NCBI RefSeq assembly: GCF_013376045.1
Contig: NZ_JABMJG010000001.1
Span: 496,001 to 560,000, forward strand
Reading direction: 5' to 3'
Source of the DNA: Variovorax sp. SG517
Lineage (GTDB): Bacteria > Pseudomonadota > Gammaproteobacteria > Burkholderiales > Burkholderiaceae_C
Length of the DNA: 64,000 nucleotides
Shown here one piece after another: positions 34,699 to 62,677 of the stretch. The position numbers and the translations under genes are program-made. Below the pieces are notes generated by a model. The model saw only the letters and a list, made by a program, of their open reading frames with translations. It ran no database searches and was not told the DNA's origin. The stretch's first letter is position 1, and the number at the start of each line of letters is the position of its first letter.

Positions 34699-34712
34699 CC
34701 GGTGAATCGCCC

Positions 34713-35609: not shown

Positions 35610-35610
35610 A

Positions 35611-37119: not shown

Positions 37120-37231
37120 CAGAAACGTGCTTTCGCGGAAGGTGAAAAGGAAGGCACGAAGATAGAAAGGAATCAATGCGCTGAGAATCGCCCCATTGCT
37201 CCACACACTCCCAGCCAAAGGTTGCCAATCC

Positions 37232-38125: not shown

Positions 38126-38188
38126 ACCGAGGAAGGACCTGCGCACGCGGCTCATGGTCGGCGCCGCATGAGTTGAAAGGCCCGCCCG

Positions 38189-40057: not shown

Positions 40058-40086
40058 GCGAGGATTTCTCTCTTCTGAAATGGATA

Positions 40087-40120
40087 CGGGGCCGGGGAAT
40101 GTATTGCATCCCCGGCCCCG
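40087..40120 (-). terminator. Strong GC-rich hairpin downstream of the FtsX-like permease
   Basis: A perfect 12-base-pair stem (CGGGGCCGGGGA with its complement) and a 10-base loop in the 88-base gap between two leftward genes. Read leftward it is followed only by a weak T-rich stretch. It is therefore best seen as a terminator or mRNA 3'-end stabiliser rather than a perfect intrinsic terminator. Confidence 0.6.
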
Positions 40121-40145
40121 TCCCGTCTCGACGAAAAGAAAAAAA

Positions 40146-42662: not shown

Positions 42663-42863
42663 GGCCGCGACGATAGCCCAGCGGGCCCCGCGCGGCCGGA
42701 TTCAAGGGTTATTGCCGGTTTTGGCCTACTTGCCCGAGTCATGGTGCTGCCGCATGATGCGAGAAAACACCCCACTGCGCCGATCAGGCATTTATTGCAG
42801 GCTGCGGCGGGCGAAATAAAAACATTCCACTATCTGGCCGTCCTTTCCCCCGAAGGAGTGTCA

Positions 42864-43190
42864 ATGCTGCGATGTCAGCGTCTGCAAACCCTGGGCCTGT
42901 GTCTGGCCCTCGGCATGCTGTTGAGTGCCTGCGATCCCAAACCCTCGGCCGGTGCCGCTGCGCCGACGTCGCCCACTTCGCCGACCGCGGGTGCTTCGGG
43001 CACCCCGGGGGCGAGCCCGAGCAGCATCAAGCCTGCCGATTCCGGCGACAAGGTCGACGAATCCACCGCCCACAAAGGCCCGTCCGAAGGCGGTGCGGCC
43101 ATCGGCGGCATGAGCGGGCCGAACGGCGGCGGCACATCCGGTGGTGCGGCGCCCGCGCCGAGCGGCGGCGACGGCTCGGCACCCAAGTAG
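42864..43190 (+). CDS. Small Gly/Ala/Ser/Pro-rich putative lipoprotein
   Basis: A 108-residue exported lipoprotein of unknown function. The N-terminus MLRCQRLQTLGLCLALGMLL-SAC is a clear signal-peptidase II site (lipobox LLSAC). Everything after the Cys is low-complexity Ala/Ser/Thr/Pro/Gly with a few charged residues, predicted disordered (SGGAAPAPSGGDGSAPK at the end). A GGAG site lies seven bases before the ATG. It precedes the formate dehydrogenase operon by 108 bases; a functional link is uncertain. Confidence 0.8.
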   Translation: MLRCQRLQTLGLCLALGMLLSACDPKPSAGAAAPTSPTSPTAGASGTPGASPSSIKPADSGDKVDESTAHKGPSEGGAAIGGMSGPNGGGTSGGAAPAPSGGDGSAPK

Positions 43191-43298
43191 CACGGCCGGC
43201 CCCGTACTGTCGATACAGCCCCCACAGATTTCCCACGCAAGGCAAGAAGAAGAGACCCCGATGAAACACCCAACTTCACCGCCGCAGGAGGTTCCGTC

Positions 43299-46200
43299 AT
43301 GGACATGAACCGCCGGCAATTCTTCCGCGTCAGCAGCGCGGGGCTGGTCGGCTCCAGCATCGCCGCGCTCGGCTTCTCGCCGACCGCCGCGCTGGCCGAG
43401 GCCCGCAACTTCAAGCTCGCGCGCACCACCGAGACACGCAACACCTGTCCGTACTGCTCGGTGGGCTGCGGGCTCATCATGTACAGCCTGGGCGACAAGG
43501 CGAAGAACGTGGTGTCCGACATCCTCCACATCGAGGGCGATGCCGACCACCCCGTGAACCGAGGCACGCTGTGCCCGAAGGGCGCCGGCCTGCTCGACTT
43601 CGTGCACAGCCCCATGCGCCTGAAGTACCCCGAGGTGCGCGAACCCGGCGCCACGGAGTGGAAGCGCATCGGCTGGGACGAGGCGCTCGACCGCATCGCC
43701 AAGCTGCTGAAGGCCGACCGCGACGCCAACTTCCAGACCACCAACGCCGACGGCAAGACCGTGAACCGCTGGACCAGCTCCGGCATGCTCTGCGCCTCGG
43801 CCTCGTCCAACGAAACCGGATACATCACGCACAAGGCATTCCGCTCGACCGGGATGCTGGTGTTCGACAACCAGGCACGCGTCTGACACGGACCTACGGT
43901 GGCCAGTCTGGCCCCGACGTTCGGCAGAGGCGCGATGACCAACCACTGGCAGGACATCCAGAACGCGGATGTCGTGCTGATCATGGGCGGCAACGCCGCG
44001 GAGGCGCATCCGTGCGGCTTCAAGTGGGTCATCGAAGCCAAGAAACAGAACAAGGCCCGCCTGGTGGTGGTCGACCCGCGCTTCACGCGCTCGGCCGCCA
44101 TGGCCGACTACTACGCGCCGATCCGCGCGGGGTCGGACATCGCCTTCCTGGGCGGGGTCATCAACTTCCTGCTGACCAACGACAAGATCCAGACCGAGTA
44201 CGTCCGCAACTACACCAACGCGACTTTCATCGTCGGCCCCGACTACAAGTTCGAGGACGGCCTGTTCAGCGGCTACAACGCCGAGAAGCGCAACTACGAC
44301 CCCAAGTCGTGGGGCTACGCGCTCGACGAGCAGGGCATGGCCAAGGTCGACATGAGCATGCAGGACCCGAACTGCGTGCTGCAGGTGATGAAGCGGCACT
44401 ATTCGCGCTACACGCCCGACATGGTGAGCCGCATCACCGGCACGCCGAAGGACAAGTTCCTGAAGGTGTGCGAGTACATCGCGAGCACCAGCACCTCCCA
44501 GCGCACCATGACCATCATGTACGCGCTGGGCTGGACGCAGCACAGCCAGGGCTCGCAGATGATCCGCACCGGCGCCATCGTGCAGCTGCTGCTGGGCAAC
44601 ATCGGCGTGCCCGGCGGCGGCATGAACGCGCTGCGCGGCCACAGCAACATCCAGGGCCTGACCGACCTGGGGCTGCTGTCGAACTCGCTGCCGGGCTACA
44701 TGTCGCTGGCGCGTGACAGCGAGCAGACGCTGGAGGACTACTACAAGACCCGCGCGCTCAAGCCCCTGCGCCCCAACCAGATGAGCTACTGGCAGAACTA
44801 TCCGAAGTTCTTCGTCAGCATGCAGAAGTCGTGGTGGGGCGACGCGGCCACGGCGGAGAACGAGTGGGGCTTCCACTACCTGCCCAAGATCGACAAGCTC
44901 TACGACGTGCTGCAGGCCTTCGAGCTCATGAACCAGGGCAAGCTCAACGGCTACATCTGCCAGGGCTTCAACCCAGTGGGCTCGTTCCCCGACAAGAAGA
45001 AGATCGTCGACGGGCTCTCCAAGCTCAAGTTCCTGGTCACCATCGATCCGCTGCAGACCGAGACCAGCGAGTTCTGGCGCAACTTCGGCGAGTTCAACGA
45101 CGTCAGGACCGCCGACATCCAGACCACGGTGTTCCGCCTGCCTTCCACCTGCTTCGCGGAGGAGGACGGCTCGCTCACCAACTCCAGCCGCTGGCTGCAG
45201 TGGCACTGGAAGGGCGCGGAGCCACCGGGCGAGGCCAAGGGCGACATCGAGATCGTCGCCGGCATCTTCAACCGGCTGCGCACCGCCTACGCAAAGGACG
45301 GCGGCGCCTTCCCCGACCCGATCGTCAAGCTCACCTGGCCCTACAAGATTCCGCACTCGCCTTCCGCGCAGGAACTGGCGATGGAATACAACGGCCGCGC
45401 GCTGGTCGACCTGACCGACCCGAAGGACCCGAGCAAGCCGCCGCTGGCCAAGGCCGGCGAGCAGCTCTCGGGCTTCGGCCTGCTGCGCGACGACGGCAGC
45501 ACCGCCAGCGGCTGCTGGATCTACTCGGGCGCATGGACGCAGGCCGGCAACCAGATGGCGCGGCGCGACAACGCCGACCCGTACGGCATCGGCATGGTGC
45601 AGAACTGGGCGTGGGCCTGGCCGGCGAACCGGCGCATCCTCTACAACGGCGCGTCCACCGACCCCGCCACCGGCAAGCCGTGGATCGCCAGGCGCGGCCT
45701 GATCGCGTGGAACGGCAAGCAGTGGGCAGGTTCGGACATTCCCGACATCCGCCCCGACGCGAACCCGACGGAAGCCGACGCGGTGCGCCCCTTCATCATG
45801 ACCGCCGAGGGCGTAGCGCGCCTGTTCGCGCCCACCGGCATGGCCGAAGGACCGCTGCCCGAGCACTACGAGCCGTTCGAGTCGCCGCTGGTCAACAACC
45901 TGATGCACCCGAACAACGAGAAGGCGCGCGCCAACCCCGCGGCGCGCATCTTCAAGGGCGACCTCGAGAGGCTCGGCGTGCCGAAGGACTTCCCGTACGT
46001 GGCGACCAGCTACCGGCTCACCGAGCACTTCCACTACTGGACCAAGAACGTGCGCACCTCGGCCATCATCCAGCCGCAGCAGTTCGTCGAGATCGGCGAA
46101 GAGCTCGCGAAGGAGAAGGGCATCGGCCACGGCGACATGGTCAAGGTGTCGAGCAAGCGCGGCTACATCAAGGCCGTGGCCGTGGTCACCAAGCGCATCG

Positions 46201-46376
46201 TCGGTCTGCAGGTGGACGGGCGCACGGTCCATACCGTGGGCTTGCCGAACCACTGGGGCTTCATCGGCATCGCGAAGCCCGGCTATCTGGTGAACACGCT
46301 AACGCCCTTCGTGGGCGATGCGAACACGCAGACGCCGGAATACAAGTCCTTCACCGTGAACATCGAGAAGGCCTGA
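43299..46376 (+). CDS. fdnG: Formate dehydrogenase-N/O major subunit, selenocysteine-containing (UGA recoded)
   Basis: Periplasmic molybdopterin catalytic subunit of the membrane formate dehydrogenase: formate to CO2 plus electrons. The 1025-codon frame has an in-frame TGA at 43884-43886 (codon 196) in NQARV-U-HGPTVASL, the position of Sec196 in E. coli FdnG. It is thus selenocysteine, not a stop; the frame continues perfectly to 46376. Other features: twin-arginine signal (NRRQFFRVSSAGLVG), [4Fe-4S] cysteines in CPYCSVGCG and LCPKGAG, and a MoCo-dinucleotide domain. The ATG at 43299 has a GGAGG site. fdnH follows by three bases. Confidence 0.97.
43887..43925 (+). promoter_or_regulatory. Bacterial SECIS element following the fdnG UGA
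   Basis: Directly after the Sec codon the mRNA can form a stem-loop whose tip is GGCC (43901-43904), AGUCU loop (43905-43909), GGCC (43910-43913). The loop carries the GU that SelB recognises, and its distance from the UGA (about 15-25 bases) matches the E. coli fdhF and fdnG elements, whose loops are also GGUCU/AGUCU. It lies inside the coding sequence. Confidence 0.88.
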
Positions 46377-46379
46377 ACG

Positions 46380-47354
46380 ATGTCCTCTCTTCAAACCCTA
46401 GACATCGCCGCCCGCTCGGCCACGACCACGCCGTCGCCCGAGATACGGCATCGGCCGCAGATCCAGCCGGTCGCGAAGCTGATCGACGTGTCGGCCTGCA
46501 TCGGCTGCAAGGCCTGCCAGGTCGCATGCATGCAGTGGAACGACCTGCGCGACGAAGTCGGCACCACGCACGGCACCTACGACAACCCGGTCGACCTCAC
46601 GCCCGCCTCCTGGACGGTGATGAAGTTCTCCGAGGTCGAGCCCGAGGCCGGCAAGCTCGAATGGCTGATCCGCAAGGACGGCTGCATGCACTGCGAGGAC
46701 CCCGGCTGCCTGAAGTCGTGCCCGGCGCCGGGCGCGATCGTCAAGTACGCCAACGGCATCGTCGACTTCATCAGCGAGCATTGCGTGGGCTGCGGCAACT
46801 GCGTCACGGGCTGCCCCTTCGACGTGCCGCGCATCAGCAAGGCCGACAACAAGGCCTACAAGTGCTCGCTGTGCTCCGACCGCGTGGGCGTGGGCCTGGA
46901 GCCGGCCTGCGTGAAGGCCTGCCCCACCGGCGCGCTGCACTTCGGCACCAAGGAAGACATGCACGAGTACGCCTCGGAGCGCATCGTCGACCTGAAGGAG
47001 CGCGGTTTCGCCAACGCCGGCGTGTACGACCCGGCGGGCGTGGGCGGCACGCACGTGATGTACGTGCTGCAGCACGCCGACCGGCCGCAGCTCTACGCCG
47101 ACCTGCCGAAGGACCCGCACATCAGCCCGCTGGTGTCGCTGTGGAAGGGCGTGGCCAAGCCGCTGGCCGTGGTCGCCATGATCGGCGCCGTGGTGGGCAG
47201 CTTCTTCCACTACATGAAGACCGGCCCCATCGAACCCAAGGACGACCACCCCGACGCCGACCGCGACGGCAGGCCCGACGACGTGGCGGTGATCGAGGAG
47301 CCGCCGGCTTCGCCCTCGCCCTCTTCGACGCCGCCCACCGCGCCCCGCGCATGA
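46380..47354 (+). CDS. fdnH: Formate dehydrogenase-N/O iron-sulphur (beta) subunit
   Basis: Electron-transfer subunit passing electrons from FdnG to the membrane cytochrome, 324 residues. Four ferredoxin-like [4Fe-4S] motifs are visible in order: [44 protein letters not shown] and [22 protein letters not shown]-terminal helix ([19 protein letters not shown]) anchors it to the membrane. The last 50 residues are acidic then Pro/Ser-rich, longer than in E. coli. Followed by fdnI. Confidence 0.96.
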
Positions 47355-47367
47355 GGAGAAGAACGCG

Positions 47368-47991
47368 ATGACACGCTACTACCTTCGCCGCTACCGCGAC
47401 GCCACGCGCATGAACCACTGGTTCGTCGCGATCATGTTCTTCGCCGCGGCGCTCTCGGGCCTGGCCTTCTTCCACCCGAGCCTGTTCTTCCTGAGCGCGC
47501 TCTTCGGCGGCGGGCCCTGGACGCGCATCCTGCATCCCTTCATGGGGCTGCTGATGGTACTGGGCTTCGTGTTCCTGTTCTTCACCATGTGGCGCGAGAA
47601 CATCCTCGACAAGGGCGACCGCGAGTGGATCGCCAACGCGCCGAAGATGCTCAAGGGCGACAAGTCGAGCATGCCGCCAGTGGGCAAGTACAACGCCGGC
47701 CAGAAGCTGGTGTTCTGGGCCTTCGGCATCAGCCTGCTGCTGTTGCTGGTGACGGGCTTCATGTTCTGGAGCCCGTGGTTCGTCGGCTTCTTCCCGATCC
47801 TTTTGCGGCGCATCGCGGTGGTGGTCCACGCGGCCTCGGCCGTGGTGCTGATCCTCTCGGTCATCACGCACATCTACGCTGCCATCTGGGTCAAGGGCAC
47901 GCTGCGCGCGATGACGCGCGGCACGGTCACCGAAGGCTGGGCCAAACTCAACCATCCGTTGTGGCACCGCAAGATGACCCGGGGGGAATGA
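47368..47991 (+). CDS. fdnI: Formate dehydrogenase-N/O cytochrome b556 (gamma) subunit
   Basis: Membrane dihaem cytochrome b that delivers electrons to quinone, 207 residues and four helices. Likely haem-ligand histidines are His17 in DATRMNHWFVAIMFFAA, the one in TRILHPFMGLLMVLG, and His residues in VVVHAASAVVLILSVITHIY. The gene lies 13 bases after fdnH with a GAGGAG site upstream of the ATG. Last gene of the structural operon before a dispersed repeat. Confidence 0.95.
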   Translation: MTRYYLRRYRDATRMNHWFVAIMFFAAALSGLAFFHPSLFFLSALFGGGPWTRILHPFMGLLMVLGFVFLFFTMWRENILDKGDREWIANAPKMLKGDKSSMPPVGKYNAGQKLVFWAFGISLLLLLVTGFMFWSPWFVGFFPILLRRIAVVVHAASAVVLILSVITHIYAAIWVKGTLRAMTRGTVTEGWAKLNHPLWHRKMTRGE

Positions 47992-48000
47992 ACTCTTCCC

Positions 48001-48083
48001 GGGCTTCGCGCATCGCATATCCCGCCCCATTCCGGGGGCGGTGCCTGCGGCCCGGCCGAGTCGGCTCCGCGGTATCCCGCGAA
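48001..48083. repeat. Dispersed GC-rich intergenic repeat, copy B
   Basis: The second copy of the element at 33407-33497, in the 164-base gap between fdnI and fdhE. Same block order: GGCTTCGCGCA, CGGGGGC, GCGGCCCGGC, CCGCGGT and CCGCGAA. The region just after it (CGATCGCGTATCGCGAATCG) is also quasi-palindromic. It may attenuate transcription between the structural and accessory genes (inference). Confidence 0.6.
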
Positions 48084-48155
48084 CAGGCCCGGCCCCTGCG
48101 GGGACTCGGGCGATCGCGTATCGCGAATCGTGCGAATGGCTGTAGAGTCGTCCGG

Positions 48156-49184
48156 ATGAGCAGTTCCAACGGCAATCCACCGCCGATCCGGACCACCCGC
48201 GTCCTCGAGCCGGAGCAGATCGCCATGCAGGCCGGGCGGCAGATGCCGTTCCTGCGCCTGCCGGTGCGCTCCCTCGCCTTTTCCGACCGCCAGCTTCGCC
48301 TGCGCCAGCTCGCGGCATCGCATCCGATGCGCGAGTACCTGATCTTCATCGCCGACCTCGCGCAGGCGCAGCACCAGGTGCTGCAGGACTACGCCCCGGT
48401 CGAGCTGCCCGAGGCCGAAGCGCTCGAAGCCGCCGCGAGGGTGCTCAAGCCCCCGATGCCCGCCTTCGGCTGGACGCGCGATGCGGTGTGGCTGAAGGAA
48501 TTGCGCCGGCTGCTCGCGTTATTTCGCGCAAGACTGCCCGAAGGCTCCGCGCGCGACACGCTCGACCGCGTGGCGGCCGCCGACGACGCATGGATCGACG
48601 CGCAGGCCGACCGGCTCTCGCGCCGCATCATGTTCGGGCTCGACCTCGCGGCCGCGCCGCTGATCGCCGCCGGGCTGCAGGCCTACTGGACGCACTTGGT
48701 GCTGCAGGTGGCCGAGCGCGCAGGCGAGAACATCTACGGCCGCACCGATCCCGGCAACGAATGCCCCTGCTGCGGCAGCGCGCCCACCGCGAGCATCACA
48801 CGCATCGGCGCCGACGAGGCAGGCTTCCGCTACCTGCACTGCTCGCTGTGCGGCACAGAGTGGCACTACGTGCGCATCAAGTGCACGCATTGCGAGAGCA
48901 CCAAGGGCATCCATTTCGAATCGCTGTCGCCGCAGCCCGGCGTGGAAGTGCCTGCCACCGGCGCGCGCGAGGGCGCGGTGAAGGCCGAGTGCTGCGACAG
49001 CTGCGGCCACTACCTCAAGCAGGTCGTGATGGAGAAAGATCCCGAGGTCGAACCCGTAGCAGACGACCTGGCGAGCGTCACGCTCGATCTGCTCGTCTCC
49101 GAAGCCGGGCATCAACGCAGCGGCCACAACCTGATGCTCCTTTTCGGCGAACCCGAAGTTCCCGACGACGGCGGAGGCGGCTGA
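48156..49184 (+). CDS. fdhE: Formate dehydrogenase accessory protein FdhE
   Basis: Cytoplasmic maturation factor for the respiratory formate dehydrogenase before Tat export, 342 residues. The C-terminal half carries four Cys pairs: ECPCCGSAP, LHCSLCGTEWHY, IKCTHCEST and CCDSCGHYLKQV, the FdhE rubredoxin-like metal sites. The ATG at 48156 gives the usual length; the longer open frame before it overlaps fdnI. The stop overlaps the selA start by one base. Confidence 0.95.
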   Translation: MSSSNGNPPPIRTTRVLEPEQIAMQAGRQMPFLRLPVRSLAFSDRQLRLRQLAASHPMREYLIFIADLAQAQHQVLQDYAPVELPEAEALEAAARVLKPPMPAFGWTRDAVWLKELRRLLALFRARLPEGSARDTLDRVAAADDAWIDAQADRLSRRIMFGLDLAAAPLIAAGLQAYWTHLVLQVAERAGENIYGRTDPGNECPCCGSAPTASITRIGADEAGFRYLHCSLCGTEWHYVRIKCTHCESTKGIHFESLSPQPGVEVPATGAREGAVKAECCDSCGHYLKQVVMEKDPEVEPVADDLASVTLDLLVSEAGHQRSGHNLMLLFGEPEVPDDGGGG

Positions 49185-50632
49185 TGGCGATGCCCGAAGA
49201 GTCCGTGGTCCACGGCTCGACGGCAAGGCCCCAGGATCTGCCTTCTGTCGATCAATTGTTGCGCCTCGCCGTGCCGGGCGCATTGCTGGCCGAGCATGGC
49301 CACACGCTCGTGGTGAAAGAGGCGCGTGCGCTGCTCGACAGCCTGCGCGCGAAAGCCGTCGTGGGCAAACTCGCTGCTGCAGAGGTGCAGCCTGATGCAC
49401 TGGGCGACGCACTCGCTGCGCGCATACAGTCGCGCCTCGCGCCGCGCATGAAGGCGGTGCTGAACCTCACGGGCACCGTCATCCACACCAACCTGGGCCG
49501 CGCGCTGCTGGCCGACGCGGCGCTGCAGCGGCTGCTGGCGGTGATGACATCGCCCAACAACCTCGAGTACGACCTCGCCACCGGCAGCCGCGGCGACCGC
49601 GACTCGCTGGTCGAAGAGCTTCTGTGCGCCATCACCGGCGCCGAGGCCGCCACGGTGGTCAACAACAACGCCGCCGCCGTGCTGCTCACCATCGCGGCGC
49701 TGGCGCGCGAGCGCGAGGTGATCGTCTCGCGCGGCGAGCTGGTGGAGATCGGCGGCGCCTTCCGCATGCCCGACGTGATGGCCAGCGCGGGCGCGCGCAT
49801 GGTCGAGGTCGGCACCACCAACCGCACGCATCCGCAGGACTACGAGCGCGCCATCAACGAGCGCACTGCCCTCGTGATGAAGGTGCACACCAGCAACTAC
49901 GCGGTGCAGGGCTTCACCTCGGCCGTCGACGAGGCCACGCTCGCCGGCATCGCGCATGCGCGCGGCGTGCCGCTGGCCACTGACCTGGGCAGTGGCTCGC
50001 TGATCGACCTCGCGCGCTACGGCCTGCCGCGCGAGCCGCTGCCGCAGGAGATGCTCGCGGCCGGCTGCGACGTGGTCACCTTCTCGGGCGACAAGCTGCT
50101 GGGCGGCCCGCAGGCCGGCCTCATCGTGGGCAGCAAGGAGGCCGTGGGCCGCATCCGCAAGTTCCCGATGAAGCGCGCGCTGCGCATGAGCAAGCTGCCG
50201 CTGGCCGCGCTCGAAGCCACGCTGTCGCTCTACCTGCGGCCCGAGCGCCTTGCGCAGGACCTGCCGACGCTGCGGCTGCTCACGCGCCCCGCCGATGCGA
50301 TCCGCGAGATGGCCGAGGCGCTGCGCGAGCCGGTGCAGGCGGCCGTGGCGCCGCGCTTCGACGTCGAGGTGGTGCCGCTGCTCGGGCAGATCGGCTCGGG
50401 CTCTTTGCCGGTGGAGCGCCTGCCCTCTGCAGGCCTTGCGATAGCACCGGCCGGCACCTCGAAGAAGGGCATCGGCACCGCGCTCGATGCCCTTGCCACC
50501 GCGCTACGCGGCCTGCCGCTGCCGGTGGTCGGGCGCATCGCTGAAGACCGGCTGCTGCTCGACCTGCGCTGCCTGGAAGACAGCGCGCCCTTCACGGGCC
50601 AGCTTGCCCTGCTGCACGAGCGGCTGCAATGA
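49184..50632 (+). CDS. selA: L-seryl-tRNA(Sec) selenium transferase
   Basis: PLP enzyme converting seryl-tRNA(Sec) to selenocysteyl-tRNA(Sec) with selenophosphate. 482 residues, normal for SelA. Motifs: LNLTGTVIHTNLGRALLADA, VNNNAAAVLLTIAALA, SRGELVEIGGAFRMPDVM and TFSGDKLLGGPQAGLIVGSK, containing the PLP lysine. The start ATG overlaps the fdhE stop by one base, and the stop overlaps selB, so fdhE-selA-selB are one coupled unit. Confidence 0.97.
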   Translation: MAMPEESVVHGSTARPQDLPSVDQLLRLAVPGALLAEHGHTLVVKEARALLDSLRAKAVVGKLAAAEVQPDALGDALAARIQSRLAPRMKAVLNLTGTVIHTNLGRALLADAALQRLLAVMTSPNNLEYDLATGSRGDRDSLVEELLCAITGAEAATVVNNNAAAVLLTIAALAREREVIVSRGELVEIGGAFRMPDVMASAGARMVEVGTTNRTHPQDYERAINERTALVMKVHTSNYAVQGFTSAVDEATLAGIAHARGVPLATDLGSGSLIDLARYGLPREPLPQEMLAAGCDVVTFSGDKLLGGPQAGLIVGSKEAVGRIRKFPMKRALRMSKLPLAALEATLSLYLRPERLAQDLPTLRLLTRPADAIREMAEALREPVQAAVAPRFDVEVVPLLGQIGSGSLPVERLPSAGLAIAPAGTSKKGIGTALDALATALRGLPLPVVGRIAEDRLLLDLRCLEDSAPFTGQLALLHERLQ

Positions 50633-52536
50633 TCATCGGCACCGCAGGCCACATCGACCACGGCAAGACCACGCTGGTGCGCGCCCTCACCGGCGTCGAC
50701 ACCGACCGGCTGCCCGAGGAGAAGCGGCGCGGCATTTCCATCGAGCTCGGCTATGCGTACCTGCATGCGCCCGACGGCGTGTCGCTGGGCTTCGTCGACG
50801 TGCCGGGCCACGAGCGCCTGCTGCACACCATGCTGGCCGGCGCGACCGGCATCGACCACGCGCTGCTGGTGGTGGCGGCGGACGACGGCGTGATGCCGCA
50901 GACGCGCGAGCACTTCGCGGTGGTGGCGCTGCTGGGCGTGCGCGAGGCGACGGTGGCCATCACCAAGATCGACCGCATCGATGCAGGCGTGCGCGAGGCG
51001 CGGCTGGCCGAAGTGCGAGCCGGCATCGCCGCCCTGCTCGCGCCCACGCCGCTGGCCGGTGCGCCGATGCTGGCGGTATCTGCAACGACGGGCGAAGGCA
51101 TCGACGCGCTGCGCGAGCGGCTGCTCGGCGTGGCGCGGCAGGAGCGCGCGCGAGAAGACGACCTGGCCTTCCGGCTCGCGGTGGACCGGTCGTTCAGCCT
51201 CTCGGGCGTGGGCACGGTCGTCACCGGCACGGTCTTCAGCGGCACGGTGCGCATCGGCGACGAGCTGCGCATCGCGCCGGGCAGCCGCACGGTGCGCGTG
51301 CGCGGCATCCATGCGCAGAACCAGCAGGCAGAGTCAGCGCATGCGGGGCAGCGCTGCGCGCTCGCGCTGGCCGGTGTCGGCAAGGACGAGGTGCATCGCG
51401 GCGAGTGGGTCTGCACGCCCTCGGTTGCGCTCGCCTCGGCGCGCATCGACGTGCTGCTCACGCTGTGGCCCGACGAAGCGAATCCGCTGCGCTCGGGCGC
51501 GACGGTGCATGCGCACCTGGGCGCGAGCGACGTGATGGCGTCGGTCGCGCTGCTCGACCGCGATGCCCTCGCGCCCGGAGAGACCGCCCTTGCGCAGCTG
51601 GTGCTGCGCGAGCCCGTGGCCGCATGGCATGGTGACCGCGGCGTGCTGCGCGATGCCTCGGCCACGCGCACGGTGGCGGGCGTGCGCGTGCTCGACCCCT
51701 TCGCGCCGGTGCGCTATCGCCGCACGCCCGAGCGGTTGCGCACGCTGGCGGCCTGGGCCATCGACGACCGCGCTGCTCGCGTGGCCGCGCTGCTGCACAA
51801 CGCGCCGCTGGGCATCGACACCGCGCAGGCTGCGCGTGCGCTCTCGCTGGCCGACGAAGAGGCACTGCCGCTGCCGAACGGCGCGGTGCGCATCGGCCAT
51901 ACGGCGATCGCTCGGCCGCACCTGGGCGCGCTCGAGGAGCAGATCGCCGAGCGCCTCGCGGATTTCCATCGCACCGCGCCGGACGAGGTCGGCCCCGACG
52001 CACGGCGTCTCAAGCGCCTGGCCGGGCCGCGCACCGACGACGCGCTCTGGCGCCATGCGCTCGACGAGCTGGTCGCGCGCGGCACGCTGGTGCGCAGCGG
52101 CACATGGCTGCATCTGCCGGACCATGCCGCACGCCTCAACGAGGCCGAGCAGAAGCTCGCGCAGAAGCTGCTGCCCAGGCTGACCGACGGCGGCTTCGAT
52201 CCGCCCTGGGTGCGCGACCTGGCCAAGGACTGCGCGGCGAGCGAGGCGATGGTGCGGCAGACGCTCGCGAGCCTCGCGCGGCGCGGCGAGACCTTCCAGG
52301 TGGTGAAGGACCTGTACTATCCCCTGGCGACCGTGGAGCGCCTTGCGGCGATCGCGCGCGATTGCCTCGACCGGCCGGCGGGCCTGGAGGCCGCGAGCTT
52401 CAGGGACGCGACCAGGCTGGGACGCAAGCGTGCGATCCAGCTGCTGGAATTCTTCGATCGTGTGGGCTACACGCGGCGCGTGAAGGACACGCACCTGCTG
52501 CGGCCCTACACGTCGTTGTTCGGGGCGAGGCCGTGA
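50629..52536 (+). CDS. selB: Selenocysteine-specific translation elongation factor
   Basis: EF-Tu-like GTPase that delivers Sec-tRNA(Sec) to UGA codons followed by a SECIS. 635 residues. G1 is [19 protein letters not shown] at residues 3-21, G3 is [10 protein letters not shown]4 is AITKIDRID, and switch I contains [16 protein letters not shown]. The C-terminal ~200 residues form tandem winged helices that bind the SECIS RNA (ending [19 protein letters not shown]). Starts in a four-base overlap with selA. tRNA-Sec is encoded 20 bases downstream. Confidence 0.97.
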
Positions 52537-52556
52537 ACGACAACGAAAGCGATCAT

Positions 52557-52649
52557 GGGAGGGGATCGTCCCTGGTGGGGCGGCCGGGCTTCAAACCCGG
52601 TTGGTGGCGCCAGCCGTCGCCGGGAAGGTTCGACTCCTTCCCCCTTCCG
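52557..52649 (+). tRNA. selC: tRNA-Sec, anticodon TCA
   Basis: Folds as the unusual selenocysteine tRNA. It has an 8-base-pair acceptor stem GGGAGGGG / CCCCTTCC (one G-U pair), anticodon stem-loop CCGGG-CTTCAAA-CCCGG with UCA at 52591-52593, a long variable arm, and T arm GAAGG-TTCGACT-CCTTC. The discriminator is G at 52649 followed by CC in the genome, so the terminal A must be added. It lies between selB and selD, so all Sec-specific factors are in one place. Confidence 0.93.
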
Positions 52650-52652
52650 CCG

Positions 52653-52773
52653 TCGAGCGGGCATTCGCCTGCTGCGCGATCCGATCTTGCACCTGCGATG
52701 CTCGACGTACCCATGTACGTCTGCGCTTCTCGGCGCAAGCTCGGACCGCTCGCGACGGCGACTGCCCACTCGA
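52653..52773. repeat. Long imperfect palindrome between tRNA-Sec and selD
   Basis: An element of about 120 bases whose halves are imperfect reverse complements. The centre is GACGTAC-CCAT-GTACGTC (52704-52721, perfect). Outer matching blocks are GGGCATTCGCC against GGCGACTGCCC and GATCCGATCTTGC against GCAAGCTCGGACC. It can fold into one long hairpin and separates the rightward tRNA-Sec from the convergent selD, so it may end transcription both ways. The length and design suggest a dispersed repeat unit rather than a dedicated terminator. Confidence 0.7.
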
Positions 52774-52796
52774 CGAGTCGGCGTAGAACCGCTGCT

Positions 52797-53864
52797 TCAG
52801 GGCACCACGTGCAGCGACGACTCACCAGCTTCCACACGGCCGATGACGGCCGCGCGCGCGAAGCCTTCGTCGCGGAAGACCTTCAGCACTGCATCGACCG
52901 CATCGGGCGCGCAGCTCACGAGCAGGCCGCCCGAGGTCTGCGGATCGCTCAGCAGGTTCTGCGTGGTGGCATGCAGGCCGGGCGCGAGGCTCACCTCGGC
53001 GCCGTAGCCGGCCCAGTTGCGGCCCGAGGCGCCGGTGACGAAGCCTTCGGCGGCCATGGCCAGCACGTTCTCGAGCAGCGGCACCTTCGACCACTCGACG
53101 ACGGCCCTGAGCTTCGCGCCGCGCGCCAGTTCGAGCGCGTGGCCGGCGAGGCCGAAGCCGGTGACGTCGGTCAGGGCGTGCACGCCGTCGAGGGCCGACA
53201 GCGCGATGCCGGGCGTGTTGAGCTTGGTCGTGCTTTCGATGAGCTGGCGGTAGCCGGTCTCGGAGAGCTGTTCCTTCTTGAGCGCGGCGGAGAGCACGCC
53301 CACGCCCAGCGGCTTGCCCAGCACGAGCACGTCGCCGGCCTTCGCGTCGGCGTTGCGGCGCACGCGATCGGGGTGCACCAGGCCCATGGCGACGAAGCCG
53401 TAGATCGGCTCGACCGAATCGATGGTGTGGCCGCCCGCAATCGGGATGCCGGCCGCGCGGCACACGTCCTGCCCGCCGCGCACGATCTCGGCAATGACTT
53501 CCACCGGCAGCTGGTTGATGGGCATGGCGACGAGCGCCAGCGCCATGATCGGGCGCCCGCCCATCGCGTACACGTCGCTGATCGCGTTGGTCGCGGCGAT
53601 GCGGCCGAACTCGTACGGGTCGTCGACGATGGGCATGAAGAAGTCGGTGGTCGCGATCAGCGCCTGCTCGTCGTTGAGCCGGTAGACAGCCGCGTCGTCG
53701 GCGGTCTCGATGCCCACCATGAGCTCGGGCGGGATCAGCCCGCCGCCCTGGTTCTTCAGGATCTGCGACAACACGCCGGGCGCGATCTTGCAGCCGCAGC
53801 CGCCGCCATGCGAAAAACTCGTGAGGCGCAGCGGCGCGAGCGGGTTCATGAGAGTCGGGTTCAT
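52797..53864 (-). CDS. selD: Selenide, water dikinase (selenophosphate synthetase)
   Basis: Makes selenophosphate from selenide and ATP, the selenium donor for SelA and for MnmH. 355 residues from the ATG at 53864; another at 53849 is possible. The active-site loop is SHGGGCGCKIAPGVL (Cys, not Sec, at the catalytic position). ATP/metal features are VGIETADDAAVYRLN, TTDFFMPIVDDPYEFGRIAA, GGHTIDSVEPIYGFVAMG and SDPQTSGGLLVS. It is leftward, convergent with tRNA-Sec, and divergent from the importer operon at 53939. Confidence 0.97.
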   Translation of the reverse strand: MNPTLMNPLAPLRLTSFSHGGGCGCKIAPGVLSQILKNQGGGLIPPELMVGIETADDAAVYRLNDEQALIATTDFFMPIVDDPYEFGRIAATNAISDVYAMGGRPIMALALVAMPINQLPVEVIAEIVRGGQDVCRAAGIPIAGGHTIDSVEPIYGFVAMGLVHPDRVRRNADAKAGDVLVLGKPLGVGVLSAALKKEQLSETGYRQLIESTTKLNTPGIALSALDGVHALTDVTGFGLAGHALELARGAKLRAVVEWSKVPLLENVLAMAAEGFVTGASGRNWAGYGAEVSLAPGLHATTQNLLSDPQTSGGLLVSCAPDAVDAVLKVFRDEGFARAAVIGRVEAGESSLHVVP

Positions 53865-53938
53865 GGCGCGATTATCGAATCGGGCCCGCTTTCTACAATC
53901 CCGTCCCTTCCTATCCCGCACGTCCCAGAGGCGCATCC

Positions 53939-54796
53939 ATGAAAAAGACTCTCACCCGACTGGCCCTTGGCCTGACCTTCTCCGCCGCGAGCCTCGGCGC
54001 CTTCGCGCAGGGCGTGCTGCGCGTCTCGGCCATTCCCGACGAGGCGCCCACCGAGCTGCAGCGCAAGTTCACGCCGCTGGGCGACTACCTGAAGAAGGAA
54101 ACCGGCATGGACGTGCAGTTCACGCCCGTGACCGACTACGCCGCCGTGGTCGAGGGCCTGGCCACCAACAAGATCGACCTGGCCTGGCTCGGCGGCTTCA
54201 CCTACGTGCAGGCGCGCATCCGCACCAACGGCGGCGCGGTGCCCATCGTGCAGCGCGCGGAGGACGAGGTGTTCACCAGCAAGTTCATCGTGCCGGTCGA
54301 CAGCACCGCGAAGACGCTGGCCGACCTGAAGGGCAAGACCTTCGCCTTCGGCGCGCCCTCCTCCACCTCGGGCAGCCTGATGCCGCGCTACTTCCTGCTG
54401 CAGGCGGGCATCAACCCCGAGAAGGACTTCAAGACCGTCGCGTTCTCGGGCGCGCACGACGCCACCGTGGCCTTCGTGGCCGCCTCGCGCGCCGAGGCCG
54501 GCGTGCTCAACGCCTCGGTGTGGGACAAGCTGGTGGAGGCCAAGAACCCCAACGCCGCCAAGGTGCGCGTGCTGGCCACCACGCCGACCTACTACGACTA
54601 CAACTGGACCGTGCGCCCCGGCCTCGATCCCGCGGTCACGAAGAAGCTGACCGACGCCTTCCTCAAGCTCGACCCGGCCAACCCAGCGCACAAGGAAATC
54701 ATGGCGCTGCAGCGCGCGAGCAAGTTCATTCCGACCAAGTCGTCGAACTACGACGGGATCGAGACGGCGGGCAAGTCGGCTGGTCTGATCAAGTGA
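53939..54796 (+). CDS. PhnD-like ABC substrate-binding protein, putative selenium-oxyanion importer
   Basis: Periplasmic binding protein of 285 residues with signal peptide ([18 protein letters not shown]). Residues 30-270 show the PhnD/phosphonate-binding fold: [60 protein letters not shown] and [20 protein letters not shown]. Phosphonate, phosphite and selenium-oxyanion binders share this fold. It lies between selD and mnmH, and no phosphonate-degradation gene is present. I recall a PhnD-like family named as a putative selenate transporter, so a selenium ligand is the best inference. Phosphonate or phosphite remain alternatives. Confidence 0.85.
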
Positions 54797-54839
54797 TTCG
54801 TCCGGAGGCGGGGGCACCAGCGTCCGAAAGCCCCTCCGC

Positions 54840-55670
54840 ATGAGCTTCTCCCTCGAAGCCGTCGGCGTGATCCATCCCAACGGCCAGCGCGCGCTGGCCG
54901 CTGTGACGCTGTCCGCGCGCGACGGCGAACGCATCGCCGTCATCGGCCCCTCGGGCGCGGGCAAGACCACGCTGCTGCGCGTGCTCGGCGCGGCGCTGCG
55001 GCCCACCGAAGGCGAGGTGCAGGCGCTCGGCGCCAGGCCGTGGCAGCTACCCGCGCCGGCGCTGAAGAAGCTGCGCGCACGCATCGGCACCGTGCACCAG
55101 TCACCACCCATCGCGCCGAGGCTGCGCGTGGTCACTGCCGTGCTCGCGGGGCGTCTCGGCGAATGGTCGATGCTGCGCGCGCTGGGCTCGCTGCTGCATC
55201 CCTCGGACATTGCGGGCGCGCACGAGGCGCTCTCACGCCTGGCGCTGGAAGACCGCCTGTTCGAGCGCTGCGACCGGCTCTCCGGCGGCCAGCTCCAGCG
55301 CGTGGGCATCGCGCGCGTGCTCTACCAGCGCCCTGCCCTGCTGCTGGCCGACGAGCCGGTGTCGGCGCTCGACCCCACGCTGGCCGACGCGGCCATCGGC
55401 CAGCTCGTGGCGCAGAGCGAATCGACGGGCGCGACGCTGATGGCCTCGCTGCACGCGGTGGACCTCGCGCTGCGCTGGTTTCCGCGCATCGTCGGCATGC
55501 GCGGCGGTGCGGTGATGTTCGACCTGCCGGCATCGCAGGTCACGCCCGAGATGCTCGATGCGCTCTACGCGAGCGAAGGCGGTGTTGCGACGCAGCGGCC
55601 GCTGCCGCCGGGTGCGACGACAGCTGCTGCGGCGGTGGAGGCGGCCTTCCAGCGGCCCGACTGCCCTTGA
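54840..55670 (+). CDS. PhnC-like ABC transporter ATP-binding protein (selenium-linked)
   Basis: ATPase of the importer, 276 residues. Walker A is GPSGAGKTT (about residues 37-45), the Q-loop [20 protein letters not shown], signature [15 protein letters not shown], Walker [18 protein letters not shown] and switch His in [12 protein letters not shown]. The LHAVDLAL pattern is typical of PhnC. It follows the binding protein by 43 bases. The C-terminal Ala-rich 25 residues overlap the possible TTG start of the next permease. Confidence 0.92.
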
Positions 55671-55693
55671 GCACGAACCTCGCCTCCCCGGCC

Positions 55694-56503
55694 ATGCGCG
55701 ACCCGCACGCCGCGCGCCGGCTGGCCGCTTGCGCCGCCGCGCTCGTCGTCGCGTGGCCGATGCTGGCGCTTTCCGAATTCAGGCCCTGGGCGCTGTTCGA
55801 CGGCGGCAATCTCGCGGTCATCGGCGGCTTCCTGGCGGGCTTCTTTCCGCCTGATGGCTCGCCGGCATTTCTCGCCCTGCTCTTCAAGGCCACGCTGGAG
55901 ACGCTGGCCATGGCCACGGCAGGCACCGCGCTCGCGTTGCTGATCGGCGCGCCGCTGGGCTTCGTGACGACGCGCGCGCTGTCCATCTCGCGCATCGGGC
56001 CGGGGCCGGGCCGCGTGCAGGCTGGCATCGTTCGGCAGGCCGCGCGCTGGCTGCTGATGGTGCTGCGGGCGATTCCGGAGATCGTCTGGGCGCTGCTCTT
56101 CGTGCGCGCGCTCGGGCTCGGTCCGGCCTCGGGCGTGCTGGCGCTGGCCATCACCTACGGCGGCATGCTGGGCAAGGTCTACGCCGAGATCCTGGAATCG
56201 GCCGACACACGGCCTGCGCGCGCGCTGCTCGAGGGCGGCAGCGGCCGGCTCGCGGCGCTGTGCTACGGCCTGCTGCCGAACACGGCTCAGGAGCTGGCGT
56301 CGTACACCGTCTACCGCTGGGAGTGCGCGGTGCGCGCCTCGGTGGTGATGGGCTTCGTCGGCGCAGGCGGGCTGGGGCAACTGATGGACCAGTCGATGAA
56401 GATGCTCAACGGCGGCGAAGCCAGCAGCATCCTGCTGGTGTTCCTGGCGCTGGTGCTGCTGGCCGACCTGCTGAGCAGCGCGCTGCGGAGGCTGCTGGCA
56501 TGA
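55694..56503 (+). CDS. PhnE-like ABC transporter permease 1 (selenium-linked)
   Basis: Inner-membrane permease of 269 residues with about six helices. The region AIPEIVWALLFVRALGLGPA and the loop GMLGKVYAEILESADTRPAR are typical of PhnE. I use the ATG at 55694. A TTG at 55667 overlapping the ATPase stop would add nine residues and is also possible. Coupled to a second permease by a four-base overlap. Confidence 0.9.
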   Translation: MRDPHAARRLAACAAALVVAWPMLALSEFRPWALFDGGNLAVIGGFLAGFFPPDGSPAFLALLFKATLETLAMATAGTALALLIGAPLGFVTTRALSISRIGPGPGRVQAGIVRQAARWLLMVLRAIPEIVWALLFVRALGLGPASGVLALAITYGGMLGKVYAEILESADTRPARALLEGGSGRLAALCYGLLPNTAQELASYTVYRWECAVRASVVMGFVGAGGLGQLMDQSMKMLNGGEASSILLVFLALVLLADLLSSALRRLLA

Positions 56504-57303
56504 CGGCGAAGACGCTGCCTCCGCGACCGCCACCGTGCTGGCGCTGCCGCATCGCGCTGCTGCTGATCGGCGCGGCCGTCGTGGCGAGCTTCGTGTACCT
56601 GGGCATCGACTACCGGGCCCTGGGCTCGGCGGAATCGCTCAGGCTCATGGGCAAGTTCGTCGCCGAGTTCTTCCCGCCCGACATGTCGCCGGACTTCCTC
56701 GCCAAGGCCGGCCACGGGGCCTTGCAGACGCTGGCGGTGTCGGCGCTGGGCACCGTGCTTGCAGCCCTTGCAGGCGCGGTACTGGCCTTGCCGGCTTCGG
56801 GGCGCGCCGGATGGATGCCGCGCCACGTGGCGCGCTTCGCGCTCAACTTCCTGCGCAGCGTGCCCGAACTGGTCTGGGCCGCGCTGATGGTGCTGGCCGC
56901 CGGCATCGGGCCGTTCGCGGGCGCGCTGGCGCTGTCGCTGCACACCACGGGCGTTCTGGGGCGCCTGTTCGCCGAGGCGCTGGAGAACGCGCCGCGCGAG
57001 CCCGAACACGCGCTCACGCTTTCGGGCGCGAATGCAGTCACCGCCTTCAGCTACGCCAGCCTGCCCATCGTGCTGCCGCAATGGGTGGCCTACACGCTCT
57101 ACCGCTGGGAAATGAACATCCGCATGGCGGCCGTGCTGGGCTTCGTGGGCGGCGGCGGGCTGGGGCAGCTGCTGTACTTCCACCTGTCGATCTTCCAGCA
57201 GCAGCAGGCGATGACGGTGCTGATCGCGATGTTCGTGCTGGTCACGCTGGTGGACTGTGCAAGCGCTCGCTTGCGTAGAGGACTTGGGCCAGCCTACGCC
57301 TGA
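56500..57303 (+). CDS. PhnE-like ABC transporter permease 2 (selenium-linked)
   Basis: A second, paralogous permease of 267 residues: IALLLIGAAVVASFVYLGID near the start, then ALNFLRSVPELVWAALMVLA and GVLGRLFAEALENAPREPEH, the same pattern as its neighbour. Two PhnE-like permeases with one binding protein and one ATPase make a complete importer. It ends 44 bases before mnmH on the same strand, so the importer and the tRNA selenation enzyme may be co-transcribed. Confidence 0.9.
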   Translation: MTAKTLPPRPPPCWRCRIALLLIGAAVVASFVYLGIDYRALGSAESLRLMGKFVAEFFPPDMSPDFLAKAGHGALQTLAVSALGTVLAALAGAVLALPASGRAGWMPRHVARFALNFLRSVPELVWAALMVLAAGIGPFAGALALSLHTTGVLGRLFAEALENAPREPEHALTLSGANAVTAFSYASLPIVLPQWVAYTLYRWEMNIRMAAVLGFVGGGGLGQLLYFHLSIFQQQQAMTVLIAMFVLVTLVDCASARLRRGLGPAYA

Positions 57304-57347
57304 GCGCCCCTGTCGCCGACAATCGGGGGCATGAGGTTCCTTCTGCC

Positions 57348-58424
57348 ATGAGTCACCGCCAGCCCGTGCGGGTGGCCGACCGCCACGCCTTCGACACGCT
57401 GATCGACGCCCGCTCGCCCGCCGAGTTCGCGCTCGACCACATTCCCGGCGCCATCAACTGCCCGGTGCTGAACGACGAGGAGCGCCATATCGTCGGCACC
57501 GTCTACGTGCAGACCGGCGCCTTCGAGGCCCGCCGCATCGGCGGTGCGATGGTGGCTGCCAACATCGCGCGGCACCTGCGCGAGACGCTGGCCGACCGGC
57601 CCGAGAACTGGAAGCCGCTGGTGTATTGCTGGCGCGGCGGCATGCGCAGCGGCTCGATGGTGACGTGGCTGCGCCTCGTCGGCTGGGACGCGCAGCAGCT
57701 CGCGGGCGGCTACAAGAGCTTCCGCCGGCACGTGATCTCGCAGATCGACACGCTGACGCCGAAGCTCGACCTGCGCGTGATCTGCGGCGCCACCGGCAGC
57801 GCCAAGACGCGCGTGCTGCACGCACTGGCTGCGCGCGGCGCGCAGGTGCTCGACCTGGAAGATTTCGCCCGCCACAAGGGATCGCTGCTCGGTTCGCTGC
57901 CGGGCGTGGCGCAGCCTTCGCAAAAGCACTTCGAGACCCTGATCGCGGCGGTGCTTGAAACGGTAGATCTTTCGCGACCGCTGTACGTGGAGGGCGAGAG
58001 CATCCGCATCGGGCGCTTGTCCTTGCCCTTGTCGCTGGTGGCTCGGATGCGGGCGGCGCCGTGCATCGAGGTGTGCGCCACGCCAGAAGCGCGGCTCGCC
58101 TATCTGCTGCGCGACTACGCCTACCTTGGCGACGACCGCGACGCGCTGGCCGACAGGCTCGGCGCGCTCAAGGAATTGCAGGGCAAGGAGACCGTCTCGC
58201 GCTGGCAGCAGTGGGCGCACGAGGCTGACCTGCCGCATCTGTTCTCGGAGCTGATGTCGCTGCACTACGACCCGCATTACCAGAAGTCGCAGGAACTGCA
58301 TTTCCGCGCCTGGGCGCAGCGGCAGCGCGTGGCGGCCGGCGATCTTTCGGATCAGGGCATCGAGGCCGTGGCCGATGCGGTGCTGGCGCTCGAAAGAGCC
58401 GCGCCGCCGAGCCCGTCGGCATAG
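57348..58424 (+). CDS. mnmH: tRNA 2-selenouridine synthase
   Basis: Replaces sulphur by selenium (through geranylated 2-thiouridine) in the wobble base of certain tRNAs, using selenophosphate from SelD. 358 residues. An N-terminal rhodanese domain has the catalytic Cys94 in YCWRGGMRSGSMVTWL, followed by a P-loop domain with GATGSAKT (about residues 142-149). Family hallmarks DARSPAEFALDHIPGAIN and GTVYVQTGAFEARRIG are present. The gene is convergent with fdhD, the two 3' ends overlapping by 73 bases. Confidence 0.96.
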   Translation: MSHRQPVRVADRHAFDTLIDARSPAEFALDHIPGAINCPVLNDEERHIVGTVYVQTGAFEARRIGGAMVAANIARHLRETLADRPENWKPLVYCWRGGMRSGSMVTWLRLVGWDAQQLAGGYKSFRRHVISQIDTLTPKLDLRVICGATGSAKTRVLHALAARGAQVLDLEDFARHKGSLLGSLPGVAQPSQKHFETLIAAVLETVDLSRPLYVEGESIRIGRLSLPLSLVARMRAAPCIEVCATPEARLAYLLRDYAYLGDDRDALADRLGALKELQGKETVSRWQQWAHEADLPHLFSELMSLHYDPHYQKSQELHFRAWAQRQRVAAGDLSDQGIEAVADAVLALERAAPPSPSA

Positions 58425-59275
58425 AGCACGCCCCGCGGCGCGCGGCACAGCCCCCAGAACCGCAGGCCGCACAACTCGGCCATGCGCACGCCCATGGCGG
58501 TGGGCGCGGAGATGGTCGCCATCGCCGCGATACCCACGCGCGCGCACTTGCGCACGAGTTCATGGCTGCCGCGGCTGGACATCAGCACGAAGCCCGGCTC
58601 CTGCAGGCGGCCCGCTTGCGCGAGGCTGCCGATGAGCTTGTCGAGCGCGTTGTGGCGGCCCACGTCTTCCATCAAGTCGGTGAGTTCACCGTCGACGCTG
58701 GCCCATGCGGCTGCATGGATCGCACCCGCCTTGGCATTGAAGACCTGGCGCGGCGGCATGGCGGCGAAGGCGCGCAGCACGGTCGCGAGGTCGATGCGCT
58801 CGATCCAGTCGCACCGGGGCACCGGCTGCGGAGAGAGGTCGAGCCCCGCGAAGCTCTCGACGCCACACACGCCACAGCCGGTGCGGCCGGCGAGGCTGCG
58901 GCGGCGGTCCTTCAGACGCTCGAAGCTGCGCGTGGAAATCTCGAGCTGTACCTCGATGCCTGGCATGCCGGCGGGCAGGCCGGCTTCGGAGGCATCGACG
59001 GTGCGCACGTCGATGCCGCGGCAGTCGGCGGCGGTGTCGAGGATGCCCTCGCTCAGCGCGAAGCCGAGGGCGAAGGCTTCCATGTCCTGCGGGGTGGCCA
59101 TCATCACCGCGTGCGAGACGCCGTTGAACACGAGCGCCACCGGCACCTCGGCCGCGAGCGTGTCGTCGCGCAGTTCGCCTTCGGGCGCGACGCCGCGTTC
59201 GCCGAACACGCGCACGGCGTGCCGCGACAGCGGCGGCAGGGTGTCTTCGGAATCGTCGTGATCTGGCTTCGACAT
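58352..59275 (-). CDS. fdhD: Formate dehydrogenase accessory sulphurtransferase FdhD
   Basis: Sulphurtransferase that moves sulphur from IscS to the molybdenum cofactor before insertion into formate dehydrogenases. 307 residues, with the conserved pair CxxC in RTGCGVCGVESFAGLD and the conserved block HAAAWASVDGELTDLMEDVG followed by RHNALDKLIGSLA. The ATG at 59275 has a GGAG site; another ATG eight codons earlier (59299) is weaker. It ends within the convergent mnmH (73-base overlap). Third gene of the leftward YdeP-small protein-fdhD operon. Confidence 0.95.
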   Translation of the reverse strand: MSKPDHDDSEDTLPPLSRHAVRVFGERGVAPEGELRDDTLAAEVPVALVFNGVSHAVMMATPQDMEAFALGFALSEGILDTAADCRGIDVRTVDASEAGLPAGMPGIEVQLEISTRSFERLKDRRRSLAGRTGCGVCGVESFAGLDLSPQPVPRCDWIERIDLATVLRAFAAMPPRQVFNAKAGAIHAAAWASVDGELTDLMEDVGRHNALDKLIGSLAQAGRLQEPGFVLMSSRGSHELVRKCARVGIAAMATISAPTAMGVRMAELCGLRFWGLCRAPRGVLYADGLGGAALSSASTASATASMP

Positions 59276-59306
59276 GTGGGCTCCGGCTGGGCGAGCCATT
59301 GTCGGC

Positions 59307-59597
59307 TCAGTCGCGGTTTTCGTCTTCGTCGGGAGGAAGTGTTCCCACCTGCGCCCGCCCGGCTTCGAGCAGGTGCGCGACCCAGCGGTCGTCGTGCTGC
59401 ACCACGCGCACCCAGCCCGGGCCGCGCACGCCGCCGATGGCGGCATCGCCCATCATCGTGAGCCGGCGCATCAGCACGCTGGCGCCCTGGCCGAGCCGCT
59501 TGCCCAGGCGCGGCAGCGAGACGCCGCTGCCGTCCGGCTCCTGCGCGAGCATGCGCAGGATGGCGACGGACAGGCTGTCCTGCAGCAAGGCACTCAT
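59307..59597 (-). CDS. Small winged-helix-like protein of the formate dehydrogenase operon
   Basis: A 96-residue protein. The order of predicted elements (LSVAILRMLAQEPDGSGVSL, then PRLGKRLGQGASVLMRRLTM, then a beta hairpin GGVRGPGWVRVVQHDDRWVA) looks like a small winged helix. It starts in an ATGA overlap with the stop of the molybdopterin oxidoreductase and precedes fdhD by 31 bases. I do not recognise a named family; a regulatory or accessory role in the operon is inferred from location. Confidence 0.75.
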   Translation of the reverse strand: MSALLQDSLSVAILRMLAQEPDGSGVSLPRLGKRLGQGASVLMRRLTMMGDAAIGGVRGPGWVRVVQHDDRWVAHLLEAGRAQVGTLPPDEDENRD

Positions 59598-61957: not shown

Positions 61958-62048
61958 GCGGGCGAGTGTTCGCCGCGGGCCGGCGGAGCGTCAAATTGAA
62001 TCGGGACATGCGGCGATTCAAAAAGGAAATGAACCGGCCGCCGTGTCG

Positions 62049-62644: not shown

Positions 62645-62677
62645 CGCCAAAGTGTATCGCTTATGCGATGCAAAGCA

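Follow-up and report, generated by a model that had tools for sequence, protein, structure and literature searches.

A selenium locus of two adjoining modules in Variovorax sp. SG517 and its ABC importer, a candidate for selenite uptake

In the soil bacterium Variovorax sp. SG517, genes for formate dehydrogenase-N, selenocysteine (Sec) decoding, selenophosphate synthesis and tRNA selenation lie together with an ATP-binding cassette (ABC) importer in 15 kb, at positions 43299-58424 of the window, a stretch of 64,000 nucleotides (contig NZ_JABMJG010000001.1, positions 496,001 to 560,000). The locus raises the question of what holds so many selenium genes together and what the importer in their midst transports. 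According to reviews published in 2022 and 2026, a specific transport system with high affinity for selenium has yet to be identified in prokaryotes. We consider it likely that the stretch consists of two adjoining selenium modules, module 1 (42717-52796) and module 2 (52797-58424), and that the importer of module 2 transports an oxyanion of selenium, with selenite the most probable one. The island offers a concrete four-gene candidate for a selenium importer with a named binding pocket.

The boundary between the modules becomes apparent in Variovorax boronicumulans CC172 (locus L013; L and G numbers are our handles for loci and genomes). Apart from smaller indels, its DNA is collinear with the window over 32929-42716 and 52797-63298, and 34 bp stand in place of window positions 42717-52796. 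The missing 10,080 bp, from fdnG to the tRNA-Sec gene, set the limits of the Sec and formate dehydrogenase-N cassette. A search of the V. boronicumulans CC172 genome found no selA; selD, the importer genes and mnmH are retained. Four further loci (L018, L019, L021, L022) have selD, importer and mnmH without the cassette and without selA in the genome, and selA was present in 18 of the 36 genomes of binding-protein loci that were searched (37 requested). In a midpoint-rooted FastTree phylogeny of SelD, binding protein, ATPase and permeases (30 sequences), L013 clusters with the cassette bearers L011, L014 and L015 (support 0.951). Because of this grouping, loss is the simplest reading, and the tree suggests that V. 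boronicumulans CC172 has lost the cassette. Judging from the empty site, a single event may suffice to abandon Sec use, with selenium supply and tRNA selenation remaining. A preliminary description of the locus held that one protein, FdnG, may justify the whole set. As it stands, this view finds no support, since relatives keep selD, importer and mnmH without Sec; FdnG therefore accounts for the Sec cassette only. In the absence of Sec, tRNA selenouridine can sustain the second half, and relatives with and without the cassette form a natural contrast.

Judged from the protein families, module 1 would be a complete Sec-decoding and formate dehydrogenase-N cassette that can be lost as a unit, and module 2 a core for selenium supply and tRNA selenation. 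The PhnDCE-type ABC importer would bring a selenium oxyanion, most probably selenite, into the cell, where it would be reduced to selenide. SelD would make selenophosphate, to be used by MnmH on tRNA and, when module 1 is present, also by SelA. SelA would charge tRNA-Sec, SelB would read the Sec insertion element (SECIS) and insert Sec196 of FdnG, and FdhE would aid maturation.

The gene set is confirmed, its individual parts are of ordinary kinds, and all genes named in the preliminary description were recovered within the 15 kb. Its statement that every component is seen directly is correct for the genes and goes too far for selenium capture, which the importer would provide; its gene list stands, save that it omits the opposite strand of selD and the adjoining fdhD. 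On the plus strand, fdnG (43299-46376), encoding the alpha subunit of formate dehydrogenase-N, scores 1464 bits against TIGR01553 when read through an in-frame TGA (43884-43886, residue 196, followed by His). An Rfam SECIS_3 element lies at 43881-43939 on the same strand (69.5 bits, gathering threshold 63), and Sec insertion is predicted for this known selenoprotein gene. The plus strand continues with fdnH for the iron-sulfur beta subunit (46380-47354; TIGR01582, 442 bits), fdnI for the cytochrome b gamma subunit (47368-47991; TIGR01583, 174 bits, cut-off 115.85) and fdhE for a formate dehydrogenase accessory protein with three Pfam domains, FdhE_N, central and C (48156-49184). They are followed by selA for selenocysteine synthase (49190-50632; TIGR00474, 573 bits), selB for the Sec-specific elongation factor (50629-52536; TIGR00475, 484 bits), which overlaps selA by 4 bases, and selC, the tRNA-Sec with anticodon TCA (52557-52651; found by ARAGORN and by Rfam RF01852 with 77.6 bits). 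The start codons of fdhE and selA were set by eye. With selD, the Sec-decoding set is complete according to profile, ARAGORN and Rfam matches. A check of the genome for further UGA-containing genes with SECIS elements, as the preliminary description had proposed, was confined to SECIS_3 elements, with 150 of 3,958 first-look candidates scored, and to PF00384 proteins; it gave a single SECIS_3 match and one TGA-bearing protein among seven PF00384 matches. Of the four in-frame TGA candidates in the window, all but the one in fdnG fall where a predicted gene ends.

Module 2 opens on the minus strand with selD (52797-53849), a selenophosphate synthetase in the Cys form (TIGR00476, 433 bits; no internal stop). 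An 89-bp spacer (53850-53938) separates it from the divergent importer genes, which like mnmH lie on the plus strand. These encode the periplasmic binding protein, a candidate selenite binder (53939-54796; TIGR04553, 368 bits, cut-off 250), a PhnC-like ATPase (54840-55670; TIGR02315, 204 bits, under its cut-off of 266) and two PhnE-like permeases (55694-56503 and 56500-57303; TIGR01097, 205 bits, under, and 239 bits, over the cut-off of 216.7). The module ends with mnmH for tRNA 2-selenouridine synthase (57348-58424; NF008752, 515 bits), and the tRNA selenouridine trait is represented by selD and mnmH both. The curated cut-offs were passed by fdnH, fdnI, selA, selB and mnmH alike. At the mnmH end the island is adjoined, on the minus strand, by fdhD for formate dehydrogenase sulfurtransferase (58352-59275; TIGR00129, 187 bits, cut-off 140.9) and then by a molybdopterin oxidoreductase of the FdhF/YdeP family (59597-61957; TIGR01701, 978 bits, no internal stop). 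The latter is retained beside fdhD at the empty site of L013, where FdnG is absent. SelD with one in-frame TGA was seen in 13 of 146 selD-bearing Burkholderiales genomes (e.g. G005, G011, G044, G083) and is probably a selenoprotein there, unlike the Cys form of the window.

The compactness of this gene set is lineage-specific. Among 200 genomes of the order Burkholderiales, in which contig breaks make linkage counts lower bounds, selD is found in 146, mnmH in 145 (143 over cut-off), selA in 59 and TIGR04553 over cut-off in 47. Within 20 kb of selA, the 59 selA genomes have selD in five cases, mnmH in three and both in two, one of which is SG517 itself, and the near-complete set is as unusually compact as had been claimed. 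A distance of at most 5 kb between selD and mnmH is kept in 34 of these 59. In the genus (101 genomes), selA occurs in 39 genomes and the importer gene in 89; in the 39, the importer gene lies within 20 kb of selA on the same strand in 28, farther away on the same contig in two and on other contigs in five, and is absent from four. Scattered genes in close relatives, named by the preliminary description as evidence against one set, are thus found in part: 11 of the 39 selA genomes have no link within 20 kb, and 28 have it. An island unique to this genome was rejected on the same count. From 521 confirmed loci of binding-protein relatives the best 80 named ones were kept, and 11 of these, as far as their DNA extends, repeat the order fdn/fdhE-selA-selB-selD (minus)-importer-mnmH. 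They belong to Variovorax (L007-L011, L014-L017) and Pseudacidovorax (L024, L025), and the arrangement is therefore a shared trait of this group. ARAGORN finds tRNA-Sec in 14 loci, namely these 11 and L012, L023 and L080. A mobile island was considered and dropped, as the plasmid search gave no evidence for mobility: none of the 111 matching records matches over 80% of the query, and the best 20 listed are 72-76% identical, mostly in fdn parts. Among the 111, one record has a 95-99% match and 11 have an 80-90% match.

The importer keeps company with selenium genes far beyond the genus. In a sample of 396 Pseudomonadota genomes, with carriers defined by a TIGR04553 match at E 1e-70, selD is present in 43 of 44 carriers and in 113 of 352 others (p 2e-18); counted by genus, the figures are 25/25 and 75/206 (p 1e-10). 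selD lies at most 10 kb from the importer in 18 of the 43 carriers that have it, farther off on the same contig in 12 and on another contig in 13. Within the order, selD occurs in 43 of 47 carriers and in 103 of 153 non-carriers (p 0.0007). The fetched flanks (up to 10 kb) of the best 80 loci hold selD in 46, mnmH in 21 and selA in 14 cases, counted without a control gene for linkage. The orientation of selD varies: it is divergent in Variovorax, and in L046 or L070 it precedes the importer on the same strand. Sec cassette and importer are also neighbours in other layouts, with the cassette inverted in L033 and L080, and likewise in L095 and L096; in G060 and G184 fdnGHI-fdhE-selA follows about 2 and 5 kb after the importer. 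From these sequence comparisons, the importer emerges as a well-linked candidate for dedicated selenite uptake, which we regard as the notable outcome of the analysis. In the open-access literature, with subscription papers and supplements outside the search, we found no printed link of the TIGR04553 family to selenium. In six genomes (G404, G457, G473, G625, G609, G003) the SelD match 2-6 kb from the importer gene lies in an open frame of about 760-850 amino acids; these long frames are presumably fusions.

TIGR04553 is named 'putative selenate ABC transporter', a model of the kind hypothetical equivalog, and the window protein exceeds its cut-off, with the ATPase and both permeases downstream. 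By sequence as well as by an AlphaFold2 model of the binding protein (mean pLDDT 88), the solved structures that come closest are those of PhnD1 from Synechococcus MITS9220 (7S6G) and from Prochlorococcus MIT9301 (5LQ5, 5LQ8), with phosphite, phosphate or methylphosphonate bound. The only two PhnD1 sequences scored, the segments of 7S6G and 5LQ5, reach 338 and 303 bits against TIGR04553 and thus pass its cut-off of 250, and the segment of Pseudomonas PtxB stays below it with 166. The phosphite-binding and tyrosine-cap residues of Prochlorococcus PhnD1 are reported as D13, Y46, S126, T127, S128, H158, N176, D205 and Y206 (PMC5700983). All nine are identical in the window protein, and seven of the nine positions are shared with the PtxB segment. 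In 33 aligned sequences, the window included, eight positions are invariant, the capping tyrosine among them, and N191 is kept in 32. All nine residues recur in 11 of 15 further carriers; three have N for D220 and one has S for N191.

Several findings weigh against a selenium importer. Where a genome of the order has none but weaker PhnD-like matches, selD occurs nearly as often (63/77) as in carriers (43/47; p 0.19); in genomes without any such match it is less frequent (40/76; p 0.0001 against the 63/77). Presence and absence within the order are therefore confounded and not specific, and this control, run for the order only, weakened the argument drawn from them. Within the genus, selA and importer occur independently of each other (35/39 vs 54/62, p 0.76). 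No selD was found in the carriers G168, G138, G002 and G175 of the order and G460 of the phylum sample; G002 and G168 have mnmH, G138 is split into 680 contigs, and G138 and G460 are without explanation. The carriers G168 and G060, both over the cut-off, differ at three of nine pocket positions (E, D and N at 34, 191 and 220), overall identity of the window protein to Prochlorococcus PhnD1 is 38%, and the ligands measured for the nearest solved relatives are phosphorus oxyanions. G175 was discarded as a counter-example: selD, mnmH and selA were not found in its genome, and its TIGR04553-type gene (L091, 6206-6988) stands alone, with no ATPase or permease nearby and with changed pocket residues.

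Selenite and phosphite are pyramidal, selenate and phosphate tetrahedral. Te_PtxB and the PhnD1 proteins prefer pyramidal phosphite over tetrahedral phosphate, and because selenite is pyramidal too, we take it as the most likely substrate, ahead of the selenate of the family name. In Te_PtxB and Prochlorococcus PhnD1, phosphate is reported to bind 2-4 orders more weakly than phosphite, partly owing to the tyrosine that closes the pocket (PMC5700983). The structure of AioX, a related protein, was solved with arsenite. A selenate importer is what the family name says, and the shape argument is weaker for Synechococcus PhnD1, where the preference for phosphite over phosphate is about 6- to 52-fold only (PMC10284923). 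We nevertheless think it improbable, as the model is a hypothetical equivalog and the invariant capping tyrosine belongs to a pocket that disfavours tetrahedral phosphate. A transporter for phosphite, or for phosphate at medium affinity, that stands beside selenium genes by chance has more in its favour: the nine pocket residues are those of PhnD1, the Prochlorococcus relative reportedly binds phosphite at 0.05-0.12 uM and the Synechococcus one at 0.67-4.3 uM, with phosphate weaker, and genomes with sub-cut-off PhnD-like matches are likewise enriched in selD. Chance is at odds with the recurrence of the importer next to selD, mnmH or the Sec cassette in varied orientations and lineages, and with selD in all but one of the phylum carriers. 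Moreover, the PhnD1 strains Synechococcus WH8102 and MITS9220 and Prochlorococcus MIT9313 and MED4, which lack ptxD, are reported not to use phosphite (PMC10284923), PtxB falls below the cut-off with two pocket positions different, and no ptxD adjoins the importer, whose neighbours are selD and mnmH (the locus alone was searched for it). A phosphorus transporter thus appears unlikely to us, if somewhat less so than a selenate importer.

The island may also be an ordinary neighbourhood of independently useful genes, close to each other for historical reasons and without shared regulation. In line with this, selD lies on the other strand, the cassette was lost without the rest, and in relatives about 3 kb of inserted DNA separates selA from selB or the importer from mnmH. 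Linkage is kept, however, in 28 of 39 selA genomes of the genus and recurs elsewhere in other gene orders, and we hold mere proximity to be doubtful, though with a real share of the probability. Several transcription units are likely, because of the strand of selD and the inserts in relatives; the single selenium regulon that the preliminary description derived from clustering would have to span both strands. An ATTATC core is conserved in 20 of 22 aligned selD/importer spacers (the window included; one of 23 was dropped for length), and some also keep TTCTACAATC; these motifs may represent divergent -10 boxes or an operator. A consensus promoter scan gave no promoters and one terminator-like site, not above shuffled sequences.

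If the candidate importer carries selenite, its marine relatives come into question. PhnD1C1E1 is reported in 97 of 97 picocyanobacterial strains of one database, and phosphorus starvation is reported not to induce marine PhnD1; phosphite is used by MIT9301, a strain with ptxD and a second transporter (PMC10284923). To the authors the situation is 'paradoxical', and the role they propose is that of a constitutive phosphate transporter (PMC10284923); the string 'selen' is absent from the main text of that paper. For cyanobacteria, a SelD fused to an NADH oxidoreductase has been reported. We tentatively propose, at chances that fall somewhat short of even, that the PhnDCE systems of TIGR04553 are the missing dedicated high-affinity selenite importers, that their phosphite affinity reflects mimicry between pyramidal oxyanions, and that picocyanobacterial PhnD1C1E1 takes up selenite and not phosphorus. 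If the picocyanobacterial family does import selenite, this would resolve the published paradox and assign a gene to one step in the cycling of selenium in the ocean.

Among known systems, the fdnGHI-fdhE-selA-selB(-selC) cluster of Pseudomonas aeruginosa presumably has the same genes in the same order as the window. In the window, selC directly follows selB, with selD, the importer and mnmH next to the cluster. The Sec pathway is described as having been transferred between Pseudomonadales and Betaproteobacteria (PMC5029168). The locus resembles the selD-mnmH (ybbB) selenouridine operon in the closeness of the two genes, but here the importer stands between them and selD is divergent. selD is reported to form operons with ybbB or selB, rarely with both (PMC2432076). 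Picocyanobacterial PhnD1 resembles the window protein in passing the TIGR04553 cut-off and in the nine pocket residues, but it was published as a phosphite/phosphate binder of disputed role beside tesA, whereas the window protein lies beside selD. Coprococcus comes and Slackia belong to other phyla than Variovorax. In these and other organisms, all known Sec-decoding genes are reported in one or two small regions (PMC5322559), with accessory genes other than those of the window, such as YedE/YedF; the word 'phosphonate' is absent from the main text of that report.

Five loci (L007 at 3535-6683, L008, L011, L014, L015) carry three extra genes between selA and selB, about 85-95% alike. The first encodes an acyl-CoA dehydrogenase-like protein nearest to the Rv1679 family (413 bits, below the cut-off of 600), the second a PhnD-like protein nearest to the Rv1680 family (228 bits, below 400) and the third a weakly AurF-like protein (37.8 bits). 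The window has no copy of the acyl-CoA dehydrogenase-like or AurF-like gene. Our guess is that the insert genes act on organic sulfur or selenium compounds.

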